From assembly GCA_020723855.1 (NCBI GenBank), contig DYIB01000012.1, positions 1 through 48,413 on the forward strand: a DNA stretch of 48,413 bases, written 5' to 3'. The notes beneath the pieces were generated by a model. The model was not told the origin of the DNA and searched no databases. It saw only the letters and a program-made list of their open reading frames with translations. The stretch's first letter is position 1. Every line of letters starts with the position of its first letter. Shown here in pieces: positions 29,273-48,328 of this stretch. Origin of the DNA: Uliginosibacterium gangwonense. GTDB lineage: Bacteria > Pseudomonadota > Gammaproteobacteria > Burkholderiales > Rhodocyclaceae. A program made the position numbers and the translations under genes.

Positions 29273-30496
29273 ATGAACACCATGGGGCCGGCGCCCGCTC
29301 CGGTCCGCAGCGAGGAGGGGGACGTGCAGGACGCCGAGGAGCAGGGCGGCTACAAGCTGCAGGCCCTGCGCATCCTGTCCGAGGTGTCCGCCAAGCTCGC
29401 CTGCGAGCACAACCTGGAAGCCCTGCTGGAGCGCTTCCTCGACACCCTCATGCGCCTGTCCGGCGCCGCCGCCGGCGCCGTGCGCGTGCTCACCACCGAT
29501 GGCCGCCGCCTGCGCCTGCTCGGCGCCCTCGGGCTGCCCGACGATGTGTTGCTGGCCGAGCAGGAAACCGATCTCGACTGCGGCATCTGCGGCGTGGCGC
29601 TGCGCGAGGACGACGTGCGGCGCGCCTTCGAGCTGAAGACCTGCGCCGAACGCACCGGCCTGCCTTTCTTCCATAACTGTTCCGGCATGGTGGTGGTGCC
29701 CCTCAAATACCGCGGCAAGGTGCTGGGTGTCTACAACCTGTTCCTGCGCGAGCGGAGCGAGGTGCCCGAGGACCTGGCGCTGCTGTTCACCTCCATCAGC
29801 GAGCACTTGGGCATGGCCCTGGAGAATGCGCGCCTGATGCGCGAGAACCTGCGCATGACGCTCATCGACGAGCGCCAGATGATCGCCAACGAGGTGCACG
29901 ATTCCCTCGCCCAGACCATGGCCTACATGAAGATGCGCCTGTCCGCCATGCAGGAGGCCCTGCAGCAGGATGACAAGGCGCGCGCCCTCGCTTACGTGGC
30001 GGACGCCCAGCAGGCCCTGGACACCGCCTACGGCGACCTGCGCGAGCTGCTCGGCCAGTTCCGCCACCGCATGGACCCGCTCGGCCTGTTCCACGCCATC
30101 GATGCCCTGGCGCTGCAGTTGCGCGAGCGCACCGGCATCGAGCTGGAGCGGCGCAACGACATCCACGAGCTGGGCCTGTCGGTGGACCAGGAGGTGCAGG
30201 TGTTCCACATCCTGCAGGAGGCCCTGGCCAACGTGGCACGCCACTCGGGCGCGACGCGCGCGCGCCTGACCATGGAGACGGGCGCCGACGGCCACCGTTT
30301 CACCGTCGAGGACGACGGCAAGGGCTTCGTGGCGGCGGGGCACGCCATGCCGCGCCACCACTTCGGCCTGAGCATCATGCGCGAGCGGGCCGAGCGCGTG
30401 GGCGGGTGCATCGAGCTGGCCCGCTCGCCCCTGGGCGGCGCCCTGGTGCGCCTGGTCGTCCCCGTCCCGCCGAAGCCTGCTGCGAGGCGGCCGTGA
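29273..30496 (+). CDS. Soluble GAF-domain sensor histidine kinase, NarX/NreB-type HisKA_3 core
   Basis: N-terminal GAF-like region with Cys cluster (DCGICG...KTCAE...HNCSG), phosphoacceptor region DERQMIANEVHDSLAQTMAYMKMRL, HATPase VEDDGKGF; no TM segment. Confidence 0.88.
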   Translation: MNTMGPAPAPVRSEEGDVQDAEEQGGYKLQALRILSEVSAKLACEHNLEALLERFLDTLMRLSGAAAGAVRVLTTDGRRLRLLGALGLPDDVLLAEQETDLDCGICGVALREDDVRRAFELKTCAERTGLPFFHNCSGMVVVPLKYRGKVLGVYNLFLRERSEVPEDLALLFTSISEHLGMALENARLMRENLRMTLIDERQMIANEVHDSLAQTMAYMKMRLSAMQEALQQDDKARALAYVADAQQALDTAYGDLRELLGQFRHRMDPLGLFHAIDALALQLRERTGIELERRNDIHELGLSVDQEVQVFHILQEALANVARHSGATRARLTMETGADGHRFTVEDDGKGFVAAGHAMPRHHFGLSIMRERAERVGGCIELARSPLGGALVRLVVPVPPKPAARRP

Positions 30497-31155
30497 ATCC
30501 ACCCATCCGCATACTTCTTGCCGACGACCACACCCTGTTCCGCAAGGGCCTGGCGGAGCTGCTGGAAGGCCGCGCCGGCATCCGGGTGGCGGCCATCGCC
30601 GGCAACGCCGACGAGACCTTGCGGCTGGCCCTGGAGCACAATCCCGATGTCGCGCTCATCGACCTCAACATGCCGCCCCAGGGCGGACTCGAAGCCCTGC
30701 GCAGGCTGCGCGCCGAAGGCTGGAACGGCGCCGCGCTGATCCTCACCGTCAGCGACAGCGAAGACGACCTCGCCGGGGCGTTACGCAGCGGCGCCCGCGG
30801 CTACCTGCTCAAGGACATGGAGCCCGACGAAGTGGCCGACGCCGTACACCGCGCCGTGCGCGGCGAAGTGGTGGTGGCGCCGGCCATGACGCTCAAGCTC
30901 ATGCACCTGCTCCAGCCCGGGCGCGGCGAAGGAGCCAAGGCGAGCCCCCTGGCGCAGCTCACGGCGCGCGAGCGGGAGATCCTCGGCCATCTGTCCCAGG
31001 GCCTGTCCAACAAGGCCATCGCGCGCCAGCTCAACATCAGCCACGACACGGTGAAGCTGCACGTGCGCCACATCCTATCCAAGCTGAACCTCACCTCGCG
31101 GGTGGAGGCGGCGGTGTTCGCCGTGGCCCACAAGGAGGAGGGGGGCGGCAAGTAG
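30493..31155 (+). CDS. NarL/FixJ-family response regulator (GTG start)
   Basis: IRILLADDHTLFRKGLAELLEG receiver; LTAREREILGHLSQGLSNKAIARQLNISHDTVKLHVRHILSKLNLTSRVEA LuxR HTH; overlaps kinase stop. Confidence 0.93.
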   Translation: MNPPIRILLADDHTLFRKGLAELLEGRAGIRVAAIAGNADETLRLALEHNPDVALIDLNMPPQGGLEALRRLRAEGWNGAALILTVSDSEDDLAGALRSGARGYLLKDMEPDEVADAVHRAVRGEVVVAPAMTLKLMHLLQPGRGEGAKASPLAQLTAREREILGHLSQGLSNKAIARQLNISHDTVKLHVRHILSKLNLTSRVEAAVFAVAHKEEGGGK

Positions 31156-35332: not shown

Positions 35333-35688
35333 GGCTTGGCCACCGGCTTGGGTTTGGCGGAATGGCATTCGAAGCAATCCAGCTCCACCGCCGCATAGCT
35401 GTGGCAGCTCTGGCAGAAGCCGTCCTGGCCCAGCACGCTGCCGCTCTTCTCTCCGGCGTGGCAGGCGACGCATTCGTTGAGGCTGTGCTCCCTGGTGCGG
35501 ATGCCCTGGCGCACGGTCTGGTCCCGCTGATGCTTGAGGAAGTCCATATGGCTGCGGCGCATGGTGTCCTTGTCGGCGACGCATTGGCCCGGCTTGGCGA
35601 TGACAATGCCGGGCCGCGGCACACCGGCCGCGGCGCCGGTCAACCAGGCCGCCATGAGCGCTGCAACGGCCAATGCCTTTGGTCTCAC
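35329..35688 (-). CDS. dsrJ: DsrJ, periplasmic triheme cytochrome c (GTG start)
   Basis: Three CXXCH: NECVACHAG, FCQSCHSY, LDCFECHSA; signal-like N-terminus; GTGA overlap with dsrL. Confidence 0.93.
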   Translation of the reverse strand: MRPKALAVAALMAAWLTGAAAGVPRPGIVIAKPGQCVADKDTMRRSHMDFLKHQRDQTVRQGIRTREHSLNECVACHAGEKSGSVLGQDGFCQSCHSYAAVELDCFECHSAKPKPVAKP

Positions 35689-37637
35689 TCGCCCAGCCCC
35701 ATCTGGATGTAGCCGGTCGGGCACACGTCGTGGCAGATGTGGCAGCCGATGCAGCGGTCGTAGTCGGTGTAGACGTAGCGGCCGGTGGTGGCGTCCTTCT
35801 TGGGCATGCGCTTGACCGCCTGCTGCGGGCAGTACACCACGCAGTTGTCGCACTCGAAGCACAGGCCGCAGCTCATGCAGCGCTTGGCCTCCGCCACCAC
35901 GTCCGCTTCGCTCAGGGGCGCCACGCGCTCCTGGAAGTTGCCCAGGGCCTGCTCGGCGGTCAGGGTGATCACCCGGCGCCGGTGGCGCGGCGTGTATTGG
36001 AAGTGGCCCAGGAACAGCTCCTTGTGGGTGATGACATAGCGGTCGGAGCGGTTCTCGAAGTTGTGGACCGCCACGTTGGCGTCGCAGGTGCCGCGGATGG
36101 GCTCGTGGATGGGCTGGGGCGGCGTGCCCTTCTCCACCAGCTTCCTCTGCATGTCCCAGTGGTGCACGTCGATCCTGGGACGCTTGTCCTGGCCCTCGCC
36201 GCGCAGGTAGCGGTCGATGCCCTCGGCGGCGATCCAGCCGTGGCCGATGGCGGTGGTGAGCAGATGCGGCCGCACCACGTCGCCGCCGACGAAGACGCCG
36301 GGCTGGCCCAGCACCTGGTAATTGCGATCGGCGACGATGCCGCCCTTGCCCGAGTCGAATTCCTCCAGCCCGGAAAAATCCACTGCCTGGCCGATGGCGG
36401 AGACGATCAGGTCCGCCTCGAGATCCTGCTCGGTGCCCGCGATGACCTTGATCTCCAGCTTCGGTCCCACGAACTTCGCCTCGCACTGAGCCACGCGCAG
36501 GGCCGTGGCGCGGCCGTCGGCGCCGCGCACCACCGCCACCGGCGCCAGGCCGCCGCGGATGACGATGCCCTCGGCCAGGGCCTGCTCGATCTCGTGCCGG
36601 TTGGCCTGCATCTTGTCCACCGGGAAGACCGAGGTGAGGGTGACTTCCGCGCCCTGGCGCGCGGAGATCTGGGCGACGTCGTGGGCGGCGCGGCCGCCGA
36701 TGACGTTCTCCGGGCGGTCCTGGTCGCGGGCGTGCTCGATGTGGCCCAGGCGCCGCGCCACGGTGGCGACGTCGATGGAGGTGTCGCCGCCGCCCACCAC
36801 CACCACGCGCTTGCCCACTTGCTGCAGCCGTCCGTCGTTGAAGGCGCGCAGGAAGGCGGTGGCGGTGACCACGTTGGGCGCGTCGTTGCCGGGGCAGGGT
36901 AGGGCCCGGCCCGACTGGGCACCCAGGCCCATGAACACCGCGTCGAAATCGCGGCGAATGTCGTCCATCGCCACGTCGCGCCCCACGCGGCAGTTGAGGC
37001 GCGTCTTCACGCCCAGGTCGAGGATGCGCTGGATCTCGGCGTCGAGCACCCCGCGCGGCGTGCGGAAGCCGGGGATGCCGTAGCGCATCATGCCGCCCAA
37101 CTGCTCGTGCTCGTCGAAGATGGTGACCTCATGCCCTTTCAGGGCGAGCTGGTAGGCGCAGGACAGCCCGGCCGGGCCGCCGCCGATGACGGCCACCTTC
37201 CTGCCCGTGGTCGCTTGTGGCTTCTTGAAGGCGAGGTTGTGGGCGATGGCATACTCCCCCAGGAAGTGCTCCACTGCATTGATGCCCACATGGTCTTCCA
37301 CCTCGTTGCGGTTGCAGCCCGCCTCGCACGGCGCCGGGCACACCCGGCCCATGACGGCAGGGAAGGGATTGGCCTCGGTCAGCCGCCGCCAGGCGTACTC
37401 CTGCCAGGTCATCCCCGTGGGCGGCTTCTCGATGCCGCGCGCGATCTGCAGATAGCCGCGGATGTCCTCGCCCGAAGGGCAACTGCCCTGACAGGGCGGC
37501 GTGGACTGCACGTAGGTCGGGCACTTGTGGGAATGGCCGGCCTTGAAGATCACCTTGTTCCAGGCGGGCGGCCGGTGGTCCCCGTCCTTGTAGCGGCGGA
37601 AGGTGAGCCGGGTGTCGGGCTGTTCCGTGGCGGACAT
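35685..37637 (-). CDS. dsrL: DsrL, NAD(P)H-binding iron-sulfur flavoprotein oxidoreductase
   Basis: GltD-like: CPAPCEAGCNRNEVEDHVGINAVEHFL, AVIGGGPAGLSCAYQLALKGHEVTIFDEHEQLGGMM; C-terminal ferredoxin CIGCHICHDVCPTGYIQMG. Confidence 0.94.
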   Translation of the reverse strand: MSATEQPDTRLTFRRYKDGDHRPPAWNKVIFKAGHSHKCPTYVQSTPPCQGSCPSGEDIRGYLQIARGIEKPPTGMTWQEYAWRRLTEANPFPAVMGRVCPAPCEAGCNRNEVEDHVGINAVEHFLGEYAIAHNLAFKKPQATTGRKVAVIGGGPAGLSCAYQLALKGHEVTIFDEHEQLGGMMRYGIPGFRTPRGVLDAEIQRILDLGVKTRLNCRVGRDVAMDDIRRDFDAVFMGLGAQSGRALPCPGNDAPNVVTATAFLRAFNDGRLQQVGKRVVVVGGGDTSIDVATVARRLGHIEHARDQDRPENVIGGRAAHDVAQISARQGAEVTLTSVFPVDKMQANRHEIEQALAEGIVIRGGLAPVAVVRGADGRATALRVAQCEAKFVGPKLEIKVIAGTEQDLEADLIVSAIGQAVDFSGLEEFDSGKGGIVADRNYQVLGQPGVFVGGDVVRPHLLTTAIGHGWIAAEGIDRYLRGEGQDKRPRIDVHHWDMQRKLVEKGTPPQPIHEPIRGTCDANVAVHNFENRSDRYVITHKELFLGHFQYTPRHRRRVITLTAEQALGNFQERVAPLSEADVVAEAKRCMSCGLCFECDNCVVYCPQQAVKRMPKKDATTGRYVYTDYDRCIGCHICHDVCPTGYIQMGLGE

Positions 37638-39904: not shown

Positions 39905-39929
39905 GCTTGCGTAACCGCGGGCAGAAGGT

Positions 39930-40010
39930 TCCCTCCTTTTTTAAAGGAGGGACAGGGAGGATTTTTCGGCGCGATGGAAATCCCCCTTGTTTCCCCTTTT
40001 TCAAAGGGGG
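39930..40010. repeat. Pair of palindromic repeats in the dsrC-dsrM gap
   Basis: tccctccttt-ttt-aaaggaggga (39930-39952) and cccctttttcaaaggggg (39993-40010), the latter an exact copy of 31965-31982. Confidence 0.75.
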
Positions 40011-40034
40011 AGACCTGCTGCAAGGGGCGGTGCC

Positions 40035-40367
40035 TCACACGCACCCCGTCGGCTTGGGCAGGCCGGCGATCTTGCACGCCTGCTTGGCCGGGCCGTAGGG
40101 GAACAGCTCGTACAGGTACTGACTGTTGCCCTTCTCCGGCCCCAGCTTCTTGCCGATGGCCTTGGTGAGCACGCGCACGGCCGGGGCGATCTGGAACTCG
40201 TTGTAGTAGTCGCGCAGGAAGTTCACCACCTCCCAGTGGTTGGGCGTCATCTCCACGTTTTCCTGCCTGGCGATGAAGTTCGCCACTTCCTCGCTCCAGT
40301 CGCCCAGATTGACCAGGTAGCCTTCCTCGTCGGTCTCGTAGGTCTTGCCGTTTACTTCTATTGCCAT
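40035..40367 (-). CDS. dsrC: DsrC, sulfur carrier/substrate protein (two C-terminal Cys)
   Basis: MAIEVNGKTYETDEEGYLVNLGDWSEEVANFIARQENVEMTPNHWEVVNFLRDYYNEF...ACKIAGLPKPTGCV; both conserved C-terminal cysteines present. Confidence 0.97.
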   Translation of the reverse strand: MAIEVNGKTYETDEEGYLVNLGDWSEEVANFIARQENVEMTPNHWEVVNFLRDYYNEFQIAPAVRVLTKAIGKKLGPEKGNSQYLYELFPYGPAKQACKIAGLPKPTGCV

Positions 40368-42541: not shown

Positions 42542-43834
42542 TCAGGCGGCGGACTTGGCCCTGATTCTCGCTACCTCCTCGTCCCAGCCGTCGGTGCGCA
42601 CATAGGGGTTGGTGCGCGGGGCGGAAACCATGTTCGGGTCTATTTCCAGTTCCACGCCTTCGAGGAAGTTCACCAGGCCGATGCGCTCGATCATCTCGCC
42701 GCAGCGCTCGTGCTCCAGGGCGTTCTCGGCGAAGAAATCCACGATGCGCTTGGCCAGATCCAGCAGCTTGTCGAAGTCCTCGTCGCTCTCCAGCTTCATG
42801 AAGGGCACCACCACCGTGCCCATGAGGTCGCCGATCTTCAGGGTGCGCTTGCCGCCCACCAGGATGGTGGCGCCGCGGTCCTTGCCCGGCGCCAGCGCCC
42901 CGGTCATGACGTTGATGCAGTGCATGCAGCGCACGCAGTCCTTGTTGTTGATCTCCAGGGCCTGGCTGTCATTGAGGGCCACGCTGCTCAGGTTCGGGCC
43001 GCTGCGTACATCCTTGATCTCCTTGAGCTGGATGGCCTTGGTGGGGCAGCGGTTCACCACGTCGTTCACCAGCTCGCTCAAGCCGTGCTTGGCGAACCAC
43101 TTCTTCGCCAGGGCCTCGTCCGTCTGCATGTTGTCGCGCCAAGTGCCGATGACGGCCATGTCGGAGCGCTGGATGGAGTTCATGCAGTCGTTGCCGCAGC
43201 CGGAGAACTTGAACTTGAACTTGTAGGGCAGGGCCGGGCGGTGGATGTCGTCCAGGAAGGCGTTGATGATCTTGCGATGGGCCTTGGCCTCGTCGTAACA
43301 GGACTGCTCGCAGCGGGCGTGGCCGACGCAGGACATGGAGGTGCGCACCGCCGGGCCGGCGCCGCCCAGGTCGAAGCCCAGGGCGTTGATCTCGTCGAAG
43401 GCCTTCTGCACGTTCTCCGTGGTGCAGCCCTGGAACATGATGTCGCCGCTCTGGCCGTGGAAGGCGATCAGCCCCGAGCCGTACTTCTCCCAGATGTCGC
43501 AGAACTTGCGCAGGATGTCGGTGGTGTAGTGCATGCCCGCGGGCGGCATGACGCGCAGGGTGTGGAACTCGGCGGCATCCTTGAACACTGGCTGGTCGTG
43601 CTCGTCCTTGATTTCCGTGAAGCGCGGGATGACGCCGCCGCCGTAGCCGAACACGCCCACGGTGCCGCCTTTCCAGTAGCCCTTGCGCGTCTGGTAGGAA
43701 TGCTCCAGGTGGCCCAGCAGATCCACCATGTAGTCCTTGTCCGCGGCGAGGCGCTTCAGGCCCGTGACGAAGCTGGGCCAGGGGCCGGCTTCCAACTGGT
43801 CGAGATTGGGCGTGTCGTGGGGCTTCTTGGCCAT
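42542..43834 (-). CDS. dsrA: Dissimilatory sulfite reductase alpha subunit
   Basis: KKPHDTPNLDQLEAGPWPSFVTGLKRLAADKDYMVDLLGHLEHSYQTRKGYWKGGTVGVFGYGGG; CVGHARCEQSC; FSGCGNDCMNSIQRSD. Confidence 0.98.
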   Translation of the reverse strand: MAKKPHDTPNLDQLEAGPWPSFVTGLKRLAADKDYMVDLLGHLEHSYQTRKGYWKGGTVGVFGYGGGVIPRFTEIKDEHDQPVFKDAAEFHTLRVMPPAGMHYTTDILRKFCDIWEKYGSGLIAFHGQSGDIMFQGCTTENVQKAFDEINALGFDLGGAGPAVRTSMSCVGHARCEQSCYDEAKAHRKIINAFLDDIHRPALPYKFKFKFSGCGNDCMNSIQRSDMAVIGTWRDNMQTDEALAKKWFAKHGLSELVNDVVNRCPTKAIQLKEIKDVRSGPNLSSVALNDSQALEINNKDCVRCMHCINVMTGALAPGKDRGATILVGGKRTLKIGDLMGTVVVPFMKLESDEDFDKLLDLAKRIVDFFAENALEHERCGEMIERIGLVNFLEGVELEIDPNMVSAPRTNPYVRTDGWDEEVARIRAKSAA

Positions 43835-44044
43835 GGGTGATGTCTCCGTGATTGGTCGGCCGCGTCCGGCGCGGGTCCGTTAGTTGCTGCTGATGCTACG
43901 CATGCTGCGCTGCGATCAGCCATCACCCGCGCAGGCTATCGCCGGCCCTCCGTGGGAGTAGGCGCCCCCTACCCGAAAGGGTTATGGGCTGCCACGCCAT
44001 GCCGGTGATAGGCGGAGCCGGTGGCGCCGTGCATATTGCCGCGC

Positions 44045-44293
44045 ATGAGCGTCGATCGCGACCCGGACGACAAGGAAGAGCTGGTCCGCCTGGACAAGTT
44101 CACGGCGCCCCTGTGGGGCCAGGACATCGAGCTGCTGCAGGTGGAGTACCGGTCGGGCGGCACGCCGCTGCTGCGCCTGCGCATCCGCGAGAAGAAGCGC
44201 TTCACCATCTTCGACATAGACGCCCAAACCGCCCGGCGCTGGGGCCAGGTCATGCTCGACTGGGCGCGGCGGCAGGAGAGCGGTGACGGGTGA
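44045..44293 (+). CDS. Small (82 aa) uncharacterised protein divergent from dsrA
   Basis: MSVDRDPDDKEELVRLDKFTAPLWGQDIELLQVEYRSGGTPLLRLRIREKKRFTIFDIDAQTARRWGQVMLDWARRQ; ATG chosen inside a longer ORF. Confidence 0.7.
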   Translation: MSVDRDPDDKEELVRLDKFTAPLWGQDIELLQVEYRSGGTPLLRLRIREKKRFTIFDIDAQTARRWGQVMLDWARRQESGDG

Positions 44294-44352
44294 CGAGTGA
44301 CGAGTGACGAGTGACAAAACCGAACCGCGCGAGCGCAAGCCGTCACCCGTCA
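44284..44352. repeat. Short gtgacga tandem repeats plus distal inverted copy
   Basis: tgacgggtgacgagtgacgagtgacgagtgac with 12-bp perfect inverse cgtcacccgtca at 44341-44352. Confidence 0.7.
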
Positions 44353-44376
44353 TCCGTCACGATTCAAGGAGAAAAC

Positions 44377-44859
44377 ATGGCTAGCGACAAACCGACCGTC
44401 ACCCTGGACATGAGCGGCCTGTCGTGCCCGGCGCCGCTCCTGGGCGCCAAGAAGATCGTGGACGACATGCAGCCGGGCCAGACCATGCTGCTCGTCTCCG
44501 ACTGCCCCGGCACGTCGGACGACTTGTTCGCCTGGTCGCGCCACACCGGTAACGAAGTGACGGAGGTGCGCAAGATCGAAGGCAACCGCGTCGCCTACAC
44601 CATCCGCAAGGGCGGCGAAGCAGTGCGCCGCTCGGCCCACGCGGTGCTGGACATGCGCGGCGTCACCTGCCCCGGCCCCATCCTCGAAGCGAAGAAGCTG
44701 CTGGACGGCATGGCTGCCGGCGAGGTGCTGCTGCTCATCAGCAACTGTCCGGGCACGGCGGCGGACGTGGACGCCTGGGTGCGCGCCACGGCGCTCGAAC
44801 TCCTGTCGCGCGTGGCCATCGGGCCGAACGCTTATGAGTTCTACCTGCGCAAGAAATAG
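44377..44859 (+). CDS. Tandem TusA-TusA sulfur-carrier fusion protein
   Basis: Two TusA/SirA-like halves: LDMSGLSCPAPLLGAKKIVDDMQPGQTMLLVSDCPGT and LDMRGVTCPGPILEAKKLLDGMAAGEVLLLISNCPGT; both have CPxP. Confidence 0.92.
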   Translation: MASDKPTVTLDMSGLSCPAPLLGAKKIVDDMQPGQTMLLVSDCPGTSDDLFAWSRHTGNEVTEVRKIEGNRVAYTIRKGGEAVRRSAHAVLDMRGVTCPGPILEAKKLLDGMAAGEVLLLISNCPGTAADVDAWVRATALELLSRVAIGPNAYEFYLRKK

Positions 44860-44873
44860 AGGGGGACGGAACG

Positions 44874-44900
44874 ATGGCACACGCCAAGGACGAGTACTGA
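44874..44900 (+). CDS. 8-aa mini-ORF (MAHAKDEY*) upstream of the DsrC-like gene
   Basis: gggggacggaacg-ATG...TGA with a purine-rich upstream sequence. Confidence 0.2.
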   Translation: MAHAKDEY

Positions 44901-44907
44901 GGCCGGT

Positions 44908-45273
44908 ATGGGTGACGCCTATCGCGATACCGCCGCTCGCGTGGTGATGGTGAACGGCCGTGCCGTGCCCACCGATGCGGAAGGCTATCTCATCCATCCG
45001 GAGGACTGGTCCGAGGACTTCGCCCGGGCGCTGGCGCGCGAGGAGGGGCTCACGCTCACGGACGAGCACTGGCAGGTGATCCGCTTCATCCGCGACTATT
45101 ACCACGAACACCGGGTGCAGCCCCAGGTGCGGGTGATGATCAAGCACTTCGCCGCCCTGTGGGGGCCGGAGCGGGGCAACAACCACTACCTGCACGAGAT
45201 CTTCCCCCGCGGCGGCCCCCAGAAGCAGGGCAACCGGCTGGCGGGGGTGCTGCGCACCAAAGGGGAGCACTAG
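44908..45273 (+). CDS. DsrC/TusE-family protein lacking both C-terminal cysteines (RspA-like)
   Basis: VNGRAVPTDAEGYLIHPEDWSEDFARALAREEGLTLTDEHWQVIRFIRDYYHEHRVQPQVRVMIKHFAALWGPERGNNHYLHEIFPRGGPQKQGNRLAGVLRTKGEH; no Cys in the protein. Confidence 0.9.
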   Translation: MGDAYRDTAARVVMVNGRAVPTDAEGYLIHPEDWSEDFARALAREEGLTLTDEHWQVIRFIRDYYHEHRVQPQVRVMIKHFAALWGPERGNNHYLHEIFPRGGPQKQGNRLAGVLRTKGEH

Positions 45274-45276
45274 CTA

Positions 45277-45843
45277 ATGGCCGTGCGCATCCGCAGCCGC
45301 TTCCATGCGGCGCAGCGCAGCCGCACCGCCGCGGAGCTCGCCAGCGTCGTCGCGCAGCTCGCCTGGAAGCTGGCCCGGGAGTCGATCCGGCGCATGCGCG
45401 AAGCGCAGTTCGACATCGATCCCGGGCCTGCCTATTTCGATTTCGTGTGCGAAGCCCTGGCCTTCCACGCCTTGGTCGCCGACCGCATCGCCTACCGGCA
45501 ACTGGCGCCGGCGCGGCGCGCGGAATTCACCCGCGCTCTTGCCCTGCGCCTGGCGGACCTGGTCGAGGACAACGCCGACATGCTTCTGGCCGAGCCGGCG
45601 CCGGGCACGTGCCGGCGCCGCTTCCTGGAGCTGTTCAACACTGCCGGGGAAGAGTACGGCGCCTACGGCTACGGCGCCGACGGGCCGGATTTCGGTTTCC
45701 GCCGCTGCTTCGCCGCGCGCCTGGGCCGGGTGCTGCCGGCCAAGGACCGGCCCTGGGTGCATGACCAGGCGATGGAGATCGAAGCGCCGACAGCGGTCGC
45801 GGCCATCGAGAAGACCCTGGCGGGGTTGTTGGCGCAACGCTAG
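45277..45843 (+). CDS. Uncharacterised 188-aa helical protein downstream of the DsrC-like gene
   Basis: MAVRIRSRFHAAQRSRTAAELASVVAQLAWKLARESIRRMREAQFDIDPGPAYFDFVCEALAFHALVADRIAYRQL...; starts 3 nt after the upstream stop. Confidence 0.75.
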   Translation: MAVRIRSRFHAAQRSRTAAELASVVAQLAWKLARESIRRMREAQFDIDPGPAYFDFVCEALAFHALVADRIAYRQLAPARRAEFTRALALRLADLVEDNADMLLAEPAPGTCRRRFLELFNTAGEEYGAYGYGADGPDFGFRRCFAARLGRVLPAKDRPWVHDQAMEIEAPTAVAAIEKTLAGLLAQR

Positions 45844-47000
45844 AAGTCGCAGGCGACGACGCGGTCGCGCCCGGCCTGCTTCGCGCGGTACATGCGCGCG
45901 TCGGCCAGATCCACCAGCGCCTTCCAGTTGGCCGCGCCGTCGGCGGTGCGCTCCGCCACGCCGATGCTGGCGGTCTGCCCGGTGCCGTCGGGCCGCGTCG
46001 CCAGCGGCTGCGCCCGCAGGCGCTCCAGCCCCACCAGCGCCTGGCGGCAATCGGTGTGGGGCATGACGAGCAGGAATTCCTCGCCGCCCCAGCGCGCCAG
46101 GATGTCGCCCGTGCGCAACTGGCTGGTGATGGTATTCACCGTATCGCGCAGCAGCGTGTCGCCGGTATCGTGGCCGTAGTCGTCATTGACTTGCTTGAAA
46201 TGGTCCAGGTCGATGAAGGCGACGGCCAGGGGCGCGCCGCTGCGGCTGGCGAGGGTGAACTGCAACTCGAGCAGCTCTTCGCCGCTGTACCGGGAAAAAC
46301 TGCCGGTGAGCGGATCCCGTATCGCCTGGCGCACCAGCACGATGACGAACGCCAACTGGCTCATGCTGGAGAACATCGCCACCGCCGTCACCAGCAGCAG
46401 CAGCCAGAAGGCGCCGGCCACCGCGGGCCAGTCGGGCGGCGGCCAGTGCAGCAGGCTGGCCCAGATCTTGGCCAGGAGAATCGGCGCCGCCAGCGCCAGC
46501 GCCTCGACGGCGGTCAGCGGGAAGATGCTCATCCCGGCAAGCAGCAGGAAGGGCAGAAAGGTGTGGGTCGCCGCCACGGCGCGTGCCAGGCCGCTGAGCA
46601 CGTGCTGTTCGAGCAGGATCGCCGAGTAGAGATAGAACACTGTGGGGATGGCGAACAGCAGCCCGATGGCCCACCGGGCGTCCTTCATGCGCGTGCGTCC
46701 GCGTAGGCCGAAGAACAGCCAGAGCAGGGCGGCCGTCGCCGTGAACCGCCCCAGCGCCAGCAATGCCCACAGGTCCAAGCGGAAGGCGACGTAGTCCACC
46801 AGGGTCCACAGGGGCGTCAGCACCGCGAACAGGGCGGCCACCAGCCGCACCCGGGACAGGATCATCTGCGCGCGCCGGTTGCCGAGCAGGGCCATATGGC
46901 CGCCCGGGGCCGTCAGCCAGAACAGCTCCTGGCGCGTCAGCCCGCCGAGGGAAAGTTCGGCGAATTGGTCGATATAACGCTTCTGTGGGGAGGCCAACAT
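45840..47000 (-). CDS. Membrane-anchored diguanylate cyclase (GGDEF)
   Basis: Several TM helices, then VAFIDLDHFKQVNDDYGHDTGDTLL...RWGGEEFLLVMPHTD; start at 47000 preceded by GGAG. Confidence 0.9.
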   Translation of the reverse strand: MLASPQKRYIDQFAELSLGGLTRQELFWLTAPGGHMALLGNRRAQMILSRVRLVAALFAVLTPLWTLVDYVAFRLDLWALLALGRFTATAALLWLFFGLRGRTRMKDARWAIGLLFAIPTVFYLYSAILLEQHVLSGLARAVAATHTFLPFLLLAGMSIFPLTAVEALALAAPILLAKIWASLLHWPPPDWPAVAGAFWLLLLVTAVAMFSSMSQLAFVIVLVRQAIRDPLTGSFSRYSGEELLELQFTLASRSGAPLAVAFIDLDHFKQVNDDYGHDTGDTLLRDTVNTITSQLRTGDILARWGGEEFLLVMPHTDCRQALVGLERLRAQPLATRPDGTGQTASIGVAERTADGAANWKALVDLADARMYRAKQAGRDRVVACDF

Positions 47001-47060
47001 GTCTCCGGGCTTCTTTATTAACGGCGCAGAAAGAGCCAAATGTAGGCTTGTTATCACTCT

Positions 47061-48328
47061 TGTCCAAAACAGCTTATGACGACGGGCCATCCGAAGGTGT
47101 AGGGTATGGGTGCATCGCCAAACGCACTTTTGCCCGACCGAAGGAGGCCCGTCGTGAGCGCATCATGCAGCATGTTTAGCCAGATACTCAAGTTGATTCC
47201 GCGCATCGAGTTTGAGCGCATGGTCAAGGAGACCGGTTCCGAATACGCCGCCAAGGGGCTGTCGAGCTGGAGCCAGTTCGTCGCCATGGTGTTCTGTCAG
47301 TTGGGCCGGGCTCATTCCTTGCGGGAGATCGAAGGGGGGCTGAAGAGCTGCGAAGGCAAGCTCACTCATCTGGGCATCGAGGCGCCGGCCCGGTCGAGTT
47401 TGTCCTACGCCAATGCACATCGACCGTGGCAATTGTTCGAGCAGGTGTTCTACCGGCTCTTCGAGCGGCTGTCGGGGAGCATGCGGCTGCCCAGGAAATT
47501 CCGCTTCAAGAACAGGCTGGTCAGCCTGGACTCGACGGTGATCGACTTGTGCCTGTCGGTCTTCGACTGGGCGAAGTTTCGCCGGACAAAGGGGGCGGTG
47601 AAGCTGCATCTGGTGCTCGATCACGATGGCTATCTGCCCTGTTACGGGGTGATTACCGACGGCAGCGTCCATGACGTCAAGCTCGCCTGGCGCATTCCCT
47701 TCCCGGCCGGCACGGTGGTGGTCGATGATCGGGGCTACAACGACTACCGGCTCTTCGCCTACTGGACGGAGTCCGAGGTGTTCTTCGTCACCCGCATGAA
47801 GGACAACGCCCTCTTCGAGGTGGTCGAGGAGCGGCCCGTGCCGCAGAACCGAAATATCCTCAAGGATCAGACCATCCGTCTGATCGGCGCGGGTGCCCAG
47901 GAGAAGTGCCCGCATCTTTTGCGCCGCATCGAGGCCATCCGGGAAGATACCGGCGAAACCTTGGTGTTCCTCACCAACCATCACAATCTGGGCGCTTCTA
48001 CCGTGGCCGCCATTTACAAGGATCGCTGGCAGGTGGAACTGTTCTTCAAGGCCCTCAAACAGAACCTGAGACTCAAGACCTTCGTCGGCACGTCTGCCAA
48101 CGCCGTGAAAATCCAAATATGGACGGCGCTGATCGCCATGCTGCTGCTGCGCTACCTGCAACTGATCTCCCGCTTCGGCTGGAGCCTGTCCAATCTGGCG
48201 GCGCTTCTGCGCATGAATCTCTTCACCCATCGCGATTCTCGCGCGCCTGGCTGAACGAACCCTTTGCCACCCCGCCCGATCCGCAGACGCACCCCCAGGC
48301 AACGCTGGCCTTCGCCTGATCCTGGACA
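47061..48328 (+). mobile_element. IS4-family insertion sequence (approximate ends)
   Basis: Transposase flanked by tgtcca (47061) and tggaca (48323-48328) as possible terminal inverted repeats; no target duplication recognised. Confidence 0.6.
47106..48254 (+). CDS. IS4-family (DUF4372-type N-terminus) DDE transposase
   Basis: SLDSTVIDLCLSVFDWAKFRRTKGAVKLHLVLDHDGYLPCYGVITDG; VVDDRGYNDYRLFAYW; YKDRWQVELFFKALKQNLRLKTFVGTSANAVKIQIW (YREK-like). Start may be further downstream (MFSQILKL). Confidence 0.92.
   Translation: MGASPNALLPDRRRPVVSASCSMFSQILKLIPRIEFERMVKETGSEYAAKGLSSWSQFVAMVFCQLGRAHSLREIEGGLKSCEGKLTHLGIEAPARSSLSYANAHRPWQLFEQVFYRLFERLSGSMRLPRKFRFKNRLVSLDSTVIDLCLSVFDWAKFRRTKGAVKLHLVLDHDGYLPCYGVITDGSVHDVKLAWRIPFPAGTVVVDDRGYNDYRLFAYWTESEVFFVTRMKDNALFEVVEERPVPQNRNILKDQTIRLIGAGAQEKCPHLLRRIEAIREDTGETLVFLTNHHNLGASTVAAIYKDRWQVELFFKALKQNLRLKTFVGTSANAVKIQIWTALIAMLLLRYLQLISRFGWSLSNLAALLRMNLFTHRDSRAPG

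Follow-up and report, generated by a model that had tools for sequence, protein, structure and literature searches.

The four plus-strand genes that stand head-to-head with the dsr operon of Uliginosibacterium gangwonense represent, in reduced form, a conserved module that serves the Dsr pathway specifically. They occupy positions 44045–45843 of the window, by which we mean the whole 48,413-nt stretch of DNA that was analyzed. The initial annotation had proposed an accessory module that could form a regulatory or buffering branch of the sulfur relay. Its accessory nature stands, given its co-occurrence with dsrA, and a regulatory role is compatible with our results; we put the probability that the module acts in regulation, and not as a second sulfur relay, at about one half. 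Judged by sequence, the parts of the module belong to known families, namely TusA, DsrC/RspA-type, DUF6967, Cas6, and TauD; the exception is the protein we call P188, which matches nothing in the libraries searched.

All four reading frames were found where they had first been described, with dsrA divergent. The first gene (44045..44293) encodes an 82-aa protein of the family DUF6967 (PF22295, E=1.7e-27). It is followed by TusA2, a tandem TusA of 160 aa (44377..44859; PF01206 in two stretches, E=4.4e-35), by a cysteine-free DsrC-family protein of 121 aa that we class as type B (44908..45273; PF04358 E=3.3e-36, TIGR03342 E=1.9e-32), and by P188, a predicted all-helical protein of 188 aa (45277..45843) for which Pfam returned nothing. 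The gaps between these genes are, in order, 83, 48, and 3 bp, and the dsrA start lies 210 bp upstream of the module on the minus strand. From there the operon runs dsrA-B-E-F-H-C-M-K-L-O-P-N, all on the minus strand. The gene dsrA (42542..43834) matches TIGR02064 (E=9e-160) as well as Pfam, dsrB matches its profile at E=7e-159, a DsrL-type FAD/Fe-S oxidoreductase is encoded at 35685–37637, and dsrE, F, H, M, and K were assigned from translations and gene order, with no profile run on dsrE, F, or H. The locus thus pairs dsrAB with dsrL and with dsrEFH, the latter recognized by position and sequence, as is typical of an oxidative dsr locus. A genuine DsrC with both functional cysteines is also present (40035..40367, minus strand; tail ...ACKIAGLPKPTGCV; TIGR03342 E=1.7e-51, and alignment). 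Strong stem-loops lie between dsrC and dsrM (39905–40034), as they do in most relatives, but their sequences are not conserved; they may affect mRNA stability or cause partial termination downstream of the abundant dsrC.

The module is genuine and specific to dsr. Co-occurrence with dsrAB, on which the initial annotation had staked its proposal, strongly survived the test. Whole-genome searches of 150 relatives found dsrA in 36 (three split genes counted), P188 in 36, and DUF6967 in 35, with all three present in 35 genomes. P188 occurred in 35 of 36 dsrA relatives versus 1 of 115 others (Fisher p=5e-32 on raw counts, kinship ignored). The one relative with P188 and no dsrA (G052) holds a weak fragment with stop codons, and one other (G075) has dsrA without the module. 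Across a class-level sample of 369 genomes, P188 was found in 108 of 119 dsrA genomes versus 8 of 251 (Fisher p about 1e-69, kinship ignored). Several of the genomes that depart from this pattern in the class are incomplete; the module of G275 (locus L114) reaches a contig end in the direction in which dsrA would be expected. P188 is therefore a near-obligate dsrAB companion in the Gammaproteobacteria as GTDB defines them. In a phylum-wide sample, it was found in 0 of 41 other dsrA genomes. Thus, the P188 family belongs to the class and not to dsr everywhere, and the Dsr pathway can run without it. One genome (G104) carries two dsrA copies, on contigs C13 and C59, each matched as two adjacent pieces; these copies may be frameshifted or split.

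Comparison of the neighborhoods in 35 relatives and 20 class-level genomes showed that the four genes first described are part of a larger set, because the module of relatives has three more: a Cas6-like gene, a TauD-like gene, and a second DsrC-like gene. In the order, dsrA (minus strand) is followed by DUF6967, the Cas6-like gene, TusA2 (optional), and a single DsrC-like gene or a pair of them; then come P188 and a TauD-like dioxygenase, preceded at some loci by a rhodanese. Gammaproteobacteria differ in that the TauD-like gene is usually the first of the set, the place of DUF6967 is commonly taken by a 64-aa gene, TusA2 is absent, and P188 lies a few kilobases further on, adjoining an Sfum_1244-family gene and often a member of the Alvin_2107 family too (NF049856, E=1.5e-34). 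Order and class-level loci alike keep the divergent synteny beside dsrA. At the gammaproteobacterial loci L105–L123, the flanks of P188 hold the Sfum_1244-family gene, a likely Fe/2OG oxygenase, and the Alvin_2107-family gene, which is of the "globule sulfur oxidation protein" kind; many of these loci have two or three dioxygenase-like genes.

The window locus has neither a Cas6-like nor a TauD-like gene, and of the two types of DsrC-like gene it lacks A and retains B. Where relatives have about 600 bp for the Cas6-like gene, the window has only 83 bp (44294..44376), with a GTGACG-type inverted repeat at the site (44283–44302 / 44341–44360); a genome search gave no match to the Cas6-like gene elsewhere in the organism, whose assembly is 84% complete. 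An eight-codon reading frame, MAHAKDEY (44874–44900), lies between tusA2 and the DsrC-like gene at the site of the relatives' type-A gene; no matching peptide was found, and we rejected it as a type-A remnant. At 45840–48254, a GGDEF gene and then an IS4-family transposase replace the TauD-like gene; in one relative (G022), too, this position is held by a GGDEF gene. Seen against the relatives, it is DUF6967 and P188 that are conserved, and the tandem TusA is optional. DUF6967 and P188 had been presented as "two orphan proteins," a label that does not fit the 82-aa protein, which belongs to a Pfam family.

The helical character first ascribed to P188 agrees with its predicted structure, a helix bundle modeled from a three-sequence alignment with pLDDT 85 and pTM 0.83. 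Searches returned no Pfam match above chance (35 members searched), no NCBIfam match, no PDB sequence match, and no PDB fold match, the best TM-score being about 0.4. Seven residues are invariant among 64 sequences (R4, E59, R70, R81, N121, W160, and P171); the cysteines vary among homologues, and none is invariant. The near-absolute dependence of P188 on dsrAB, its compact predicted shape, and the dioxygenase-like genes that recur nearby would suit a role in maturation, with P188 and its partners assembling, modifying, or protecting DsrAB or DsrMKJOP and the TauD-like enzyme acting as a hydroxylase. We consider such a role very unlikely, since P188 is unlike any solved chaperone fold and phylum-level dsrA genomes do without it. 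The other conserved protein, DUF6967, contains no cysteine in the window and is modeled as four strands and a helix (pLDDT 73). Pur-alpha repeats were its best match among PDB folds (probability 0.97 but E=0.23), and a PDB profile search gave a single, uninformative partial match; the predicted fold is weakly PUR-repeat-like.

The DsrC-family protein was described from the start as lacking cysteine, and this is borne out. It matches the whole-domain DsrC/TusE family profile and the A. vinosum-type DsrC structure 1yx3 (E=2e-25), but it has neither of the two cysteines, Cys100 and Cys111, that DsrC proper bears on its flexible C-terminal arm, and its tail reads ...GNRLAGVLRTKGEH. In the alignment, Cys111 is lost from every module DsrC-like protein read. 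Two types can be told apart. Type A has a tail fixed as (G/R)K(G/A)GY where DsrC has its Cys111-containing end (L035–L068, L105–L123), and type B, the rarer one, has close homologues in four relatives (G009, G016, G070, and G072). Because the type-A tail is invariant, it suggests that these proteins may have a specific binding role. A regulatory, RspA-type group of DsrC proteins was reportedly named by Venceslau and colleagues in 2014 for its absence of sulfur-carrying cysteines, and by this sequence criterion the window protein would belong with that group. Like RspA-type and other TusE-DsrC proteins (PF04358, TIGR03342), the module proteins are of the DsrC sequence family and lack sulfur-carrying cysteines; unlike them, they form two conserved subtypes within one dsrA-divergent module, type A with (G/R)K(G/A)GY and type B with RTKGEH. 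The idea that an inert DsrC mimic competes with DsrC for DsrEFH is disfavored. Binding to DsrEFH is much reduced for both DsrC-Ser111 and the Ser100/111 double mutant (PMC3397948), which makes competition at that partner unlikely. Competition with DsrC at DsrAB or on DNA is possible. Binding of DsrC to DNA ahead of the dsr cluster is stated in PMC5944118.

As initially read, both CPxP sites of TusA2 are intact (C17PAP and C98PGP), and each half carries an extra cysteine (C43 and C124); all four cysteines are kept in 29 of 29 homologues. Each half thus shares its active-site motif with E. coli TusA (3lvj/1dcj; PF01206), whereas the fusion of two domains and the extra invariant cysteine in each set TusA2 apart, E. 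coli TusA having Asp at the C43 position. The assumption that a TusA linked to dsr normally has one domain fails in this order: 27 of 36 dsrA genomes carry the tandem form, which was seen in none of the genomes lacking dsrA. At L071 (G018:C1:34000-39000) and at L055, TusA genes, tandem or single, lie close to apparent flavocytochrome c sulfide dehydrogenase genes, away from or beyond the dsr module. The strictly kept cysteines and the restriction to dsrA genomes of the order give weight to an auxiliary sulfur relay, in which TusA2, with up to four reactive cysteines, would be a high-capacity carrier or buffer feeding DsrEFH while the other proteins dock. Support for the two-site carrier loading DsrEFH that was envisaged at the outset is weak, however: TusA2 is in the module at 22 of 35 order loci, the window included, and is missing at the other 13 and at all 20 class-level loci read. 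In addition, the constant members have no conserved thiols, and DsrC without Cys111 is a poor DsrEFH ligand. We therefore regard a relay of this kind as unlikely.

The Cas6-like protein of relatives is, on sequence criteria, a true Cas6 homologue. It has a full-length Cas6/Cmx6 match (PF09559 E=6e-51, TIGR02807), its closest solved relative is the Cas6 chain 8fcj_B of a type I-B system (E=1.8e-32), and it keeps the Gly-rich loop. The position after the conserved Asp, candidate for a catalytic His, is occupied by either His or Tyr, and in occasional sequences by neither. The family was found in 34 genomes of the order sample, in every case inside the dsr module and never without dsrA. A scan of about 1 Mb of sequence around these loci detected no CRISPR array, so that the protein does not sit in a CRISPR/cas location there; it gave one repeat match, at L109, whose 81-nt period suggests repeats inside a coding gene. 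A CRISPR or defense remnant was rejected on the strength of these missing arrays and of the exclusive dsr link in the order. The protein thus resembles the Cas6/Cmx6 CRISPR endoribonucleases in its whole-length family match and Gly-rich loop, but it differs from them in having no array at the loci read, in occurring only beside dsrA in the order sample, and in being absent from the window genome. We found no description of a dsr-linked Cas6, or of the whole module, in the open literature searched.

Cas6 homology, its exclusive linkage to dsr in the order, and the weakly PUR-like predicted fold of DUF6967 would fit a module for RNA processing or modification. The Cas6-like protein would then bind or cut dsr mRNA or another structured RNA, with the DsrC-like proteins and TusA2 as Tus-type partners and the window copy as a relic. 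Stem-loops after dsrC in most genomes would offer a target, but in some genomes with the Cas6-like gene only 6–29 nt follow dsrC, too few for a strong hairpin. The inconstant catalytic His and the retention of the remaining genes in the window despite loss of the Cas6-like gene also count against this proposal, and we hold it to be unlikely. The idea that a conserved hairpin between dsrC and dsrM is the Cas6 target was not supported: no hairpin common to the genomes with the Cas6-like gene was found there, and neither sequence nor presence of the stem-loops tracks that gene.

The intergenic region between dsrA and the module contains a candidate shared operator at 43950..43986, of the form GTGGGaGTAG-n6-CCTACCCGAAAGGgTTATG with alternating GGGTA and TACCC blocks. 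The corresponding conserved element, GGGTA-n-CCTACCCGAAnGGaGTAT (GGGTA/CTACCC), was found within 5 mismatches at 23 of 35 loci versus 1.6% of dinucleotide shuffles, and at 16 of 28 once the 7 consensus-defining loci were left out. Tail-to-tail with the dsr operon, beyond its last gene, lie genes for a GAF histidine kinase and a LuxR-type response regulator (29273–31152, the regulator at 30406–31152). Of 20 relatives examined, 7 have a response-regulator homologue in this position, and one more has the kinase alone. This pair is a candidate regulator of the dsrA/module promoter; its binding to the element is offered only as a suggestion.

For the regulatory reading that we favor, the following scheme may be drawn. 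The module is transcribed away from dsrA, from the intergenic region common to both. The cysteine-free DsrC paralogue would engage a DsrC target, either DsrAB or dsr promoter DNA, while carrying no sulfur. The Cas6-like protein, where present, would act on RNA, P188 would serve as a protein adaptor, and TusA2 would tie the module to the thiol pool, so that dsr expression or Dsr activity could be matched to sulfur supply. Several observations make regulation a better fit than a second relay. First, the constant parts have no conserved thiols, and TusA2 is optional. Second, the DsrC paralogue retains the family sequence and not its chemistry, and DsrC itself reportedly contacts DNA upstream of the dsr cluster. 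Third, the full module includes a member of an RNA-binding protein family, although its absence from the window implies that action on RNA is not essential to this copy, if the copy functions at all. Finally, A. vinosum mutants in DsrR and DsrS reportedly show dsr expression altered post-transcription, which would fit regulation as well. Against a purely regulatory role, the active sites of TusA2 are kept, and such a role would not need them. A more specific version is a tentative possibility: a domesticated Cas6, encoded opposite dsrA alongside P188, a dioxygenase, and a sulfur-inert DsrC paralogue, might constitute dedicated RNA-level control of Dsr in gammaproteobacterial sulfur oxidizers, the window copy having lost the RNA-binding arm.

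The module joins DsrR, DsrS, DsrT, and Alvin_2107-type genes as little-understood helpers tied to the dsr pathway, but P188, DUF6967, and the Cas6-like protein show no match to these in the family profiles searched. In a recent survey, dsrR, dsrS, and dsrT appear only as additional genes (PMC11406059); DsrL, DsrR, and DsrS are called unresolved in the genome paper on A. vinosum (PMC3368242). How the Dsr pathway is regulated is poorly understood, and P188 and the Cas6 homologue give concrete genes to delete. Our results also suggest that, in these bacteria, many proteins annotated as CRISPR Cas6/Cmx6 are linked with sulfur metabolism. Overall, this work points to a dedicated, apparently undescribed control system for sulfur oxidation.
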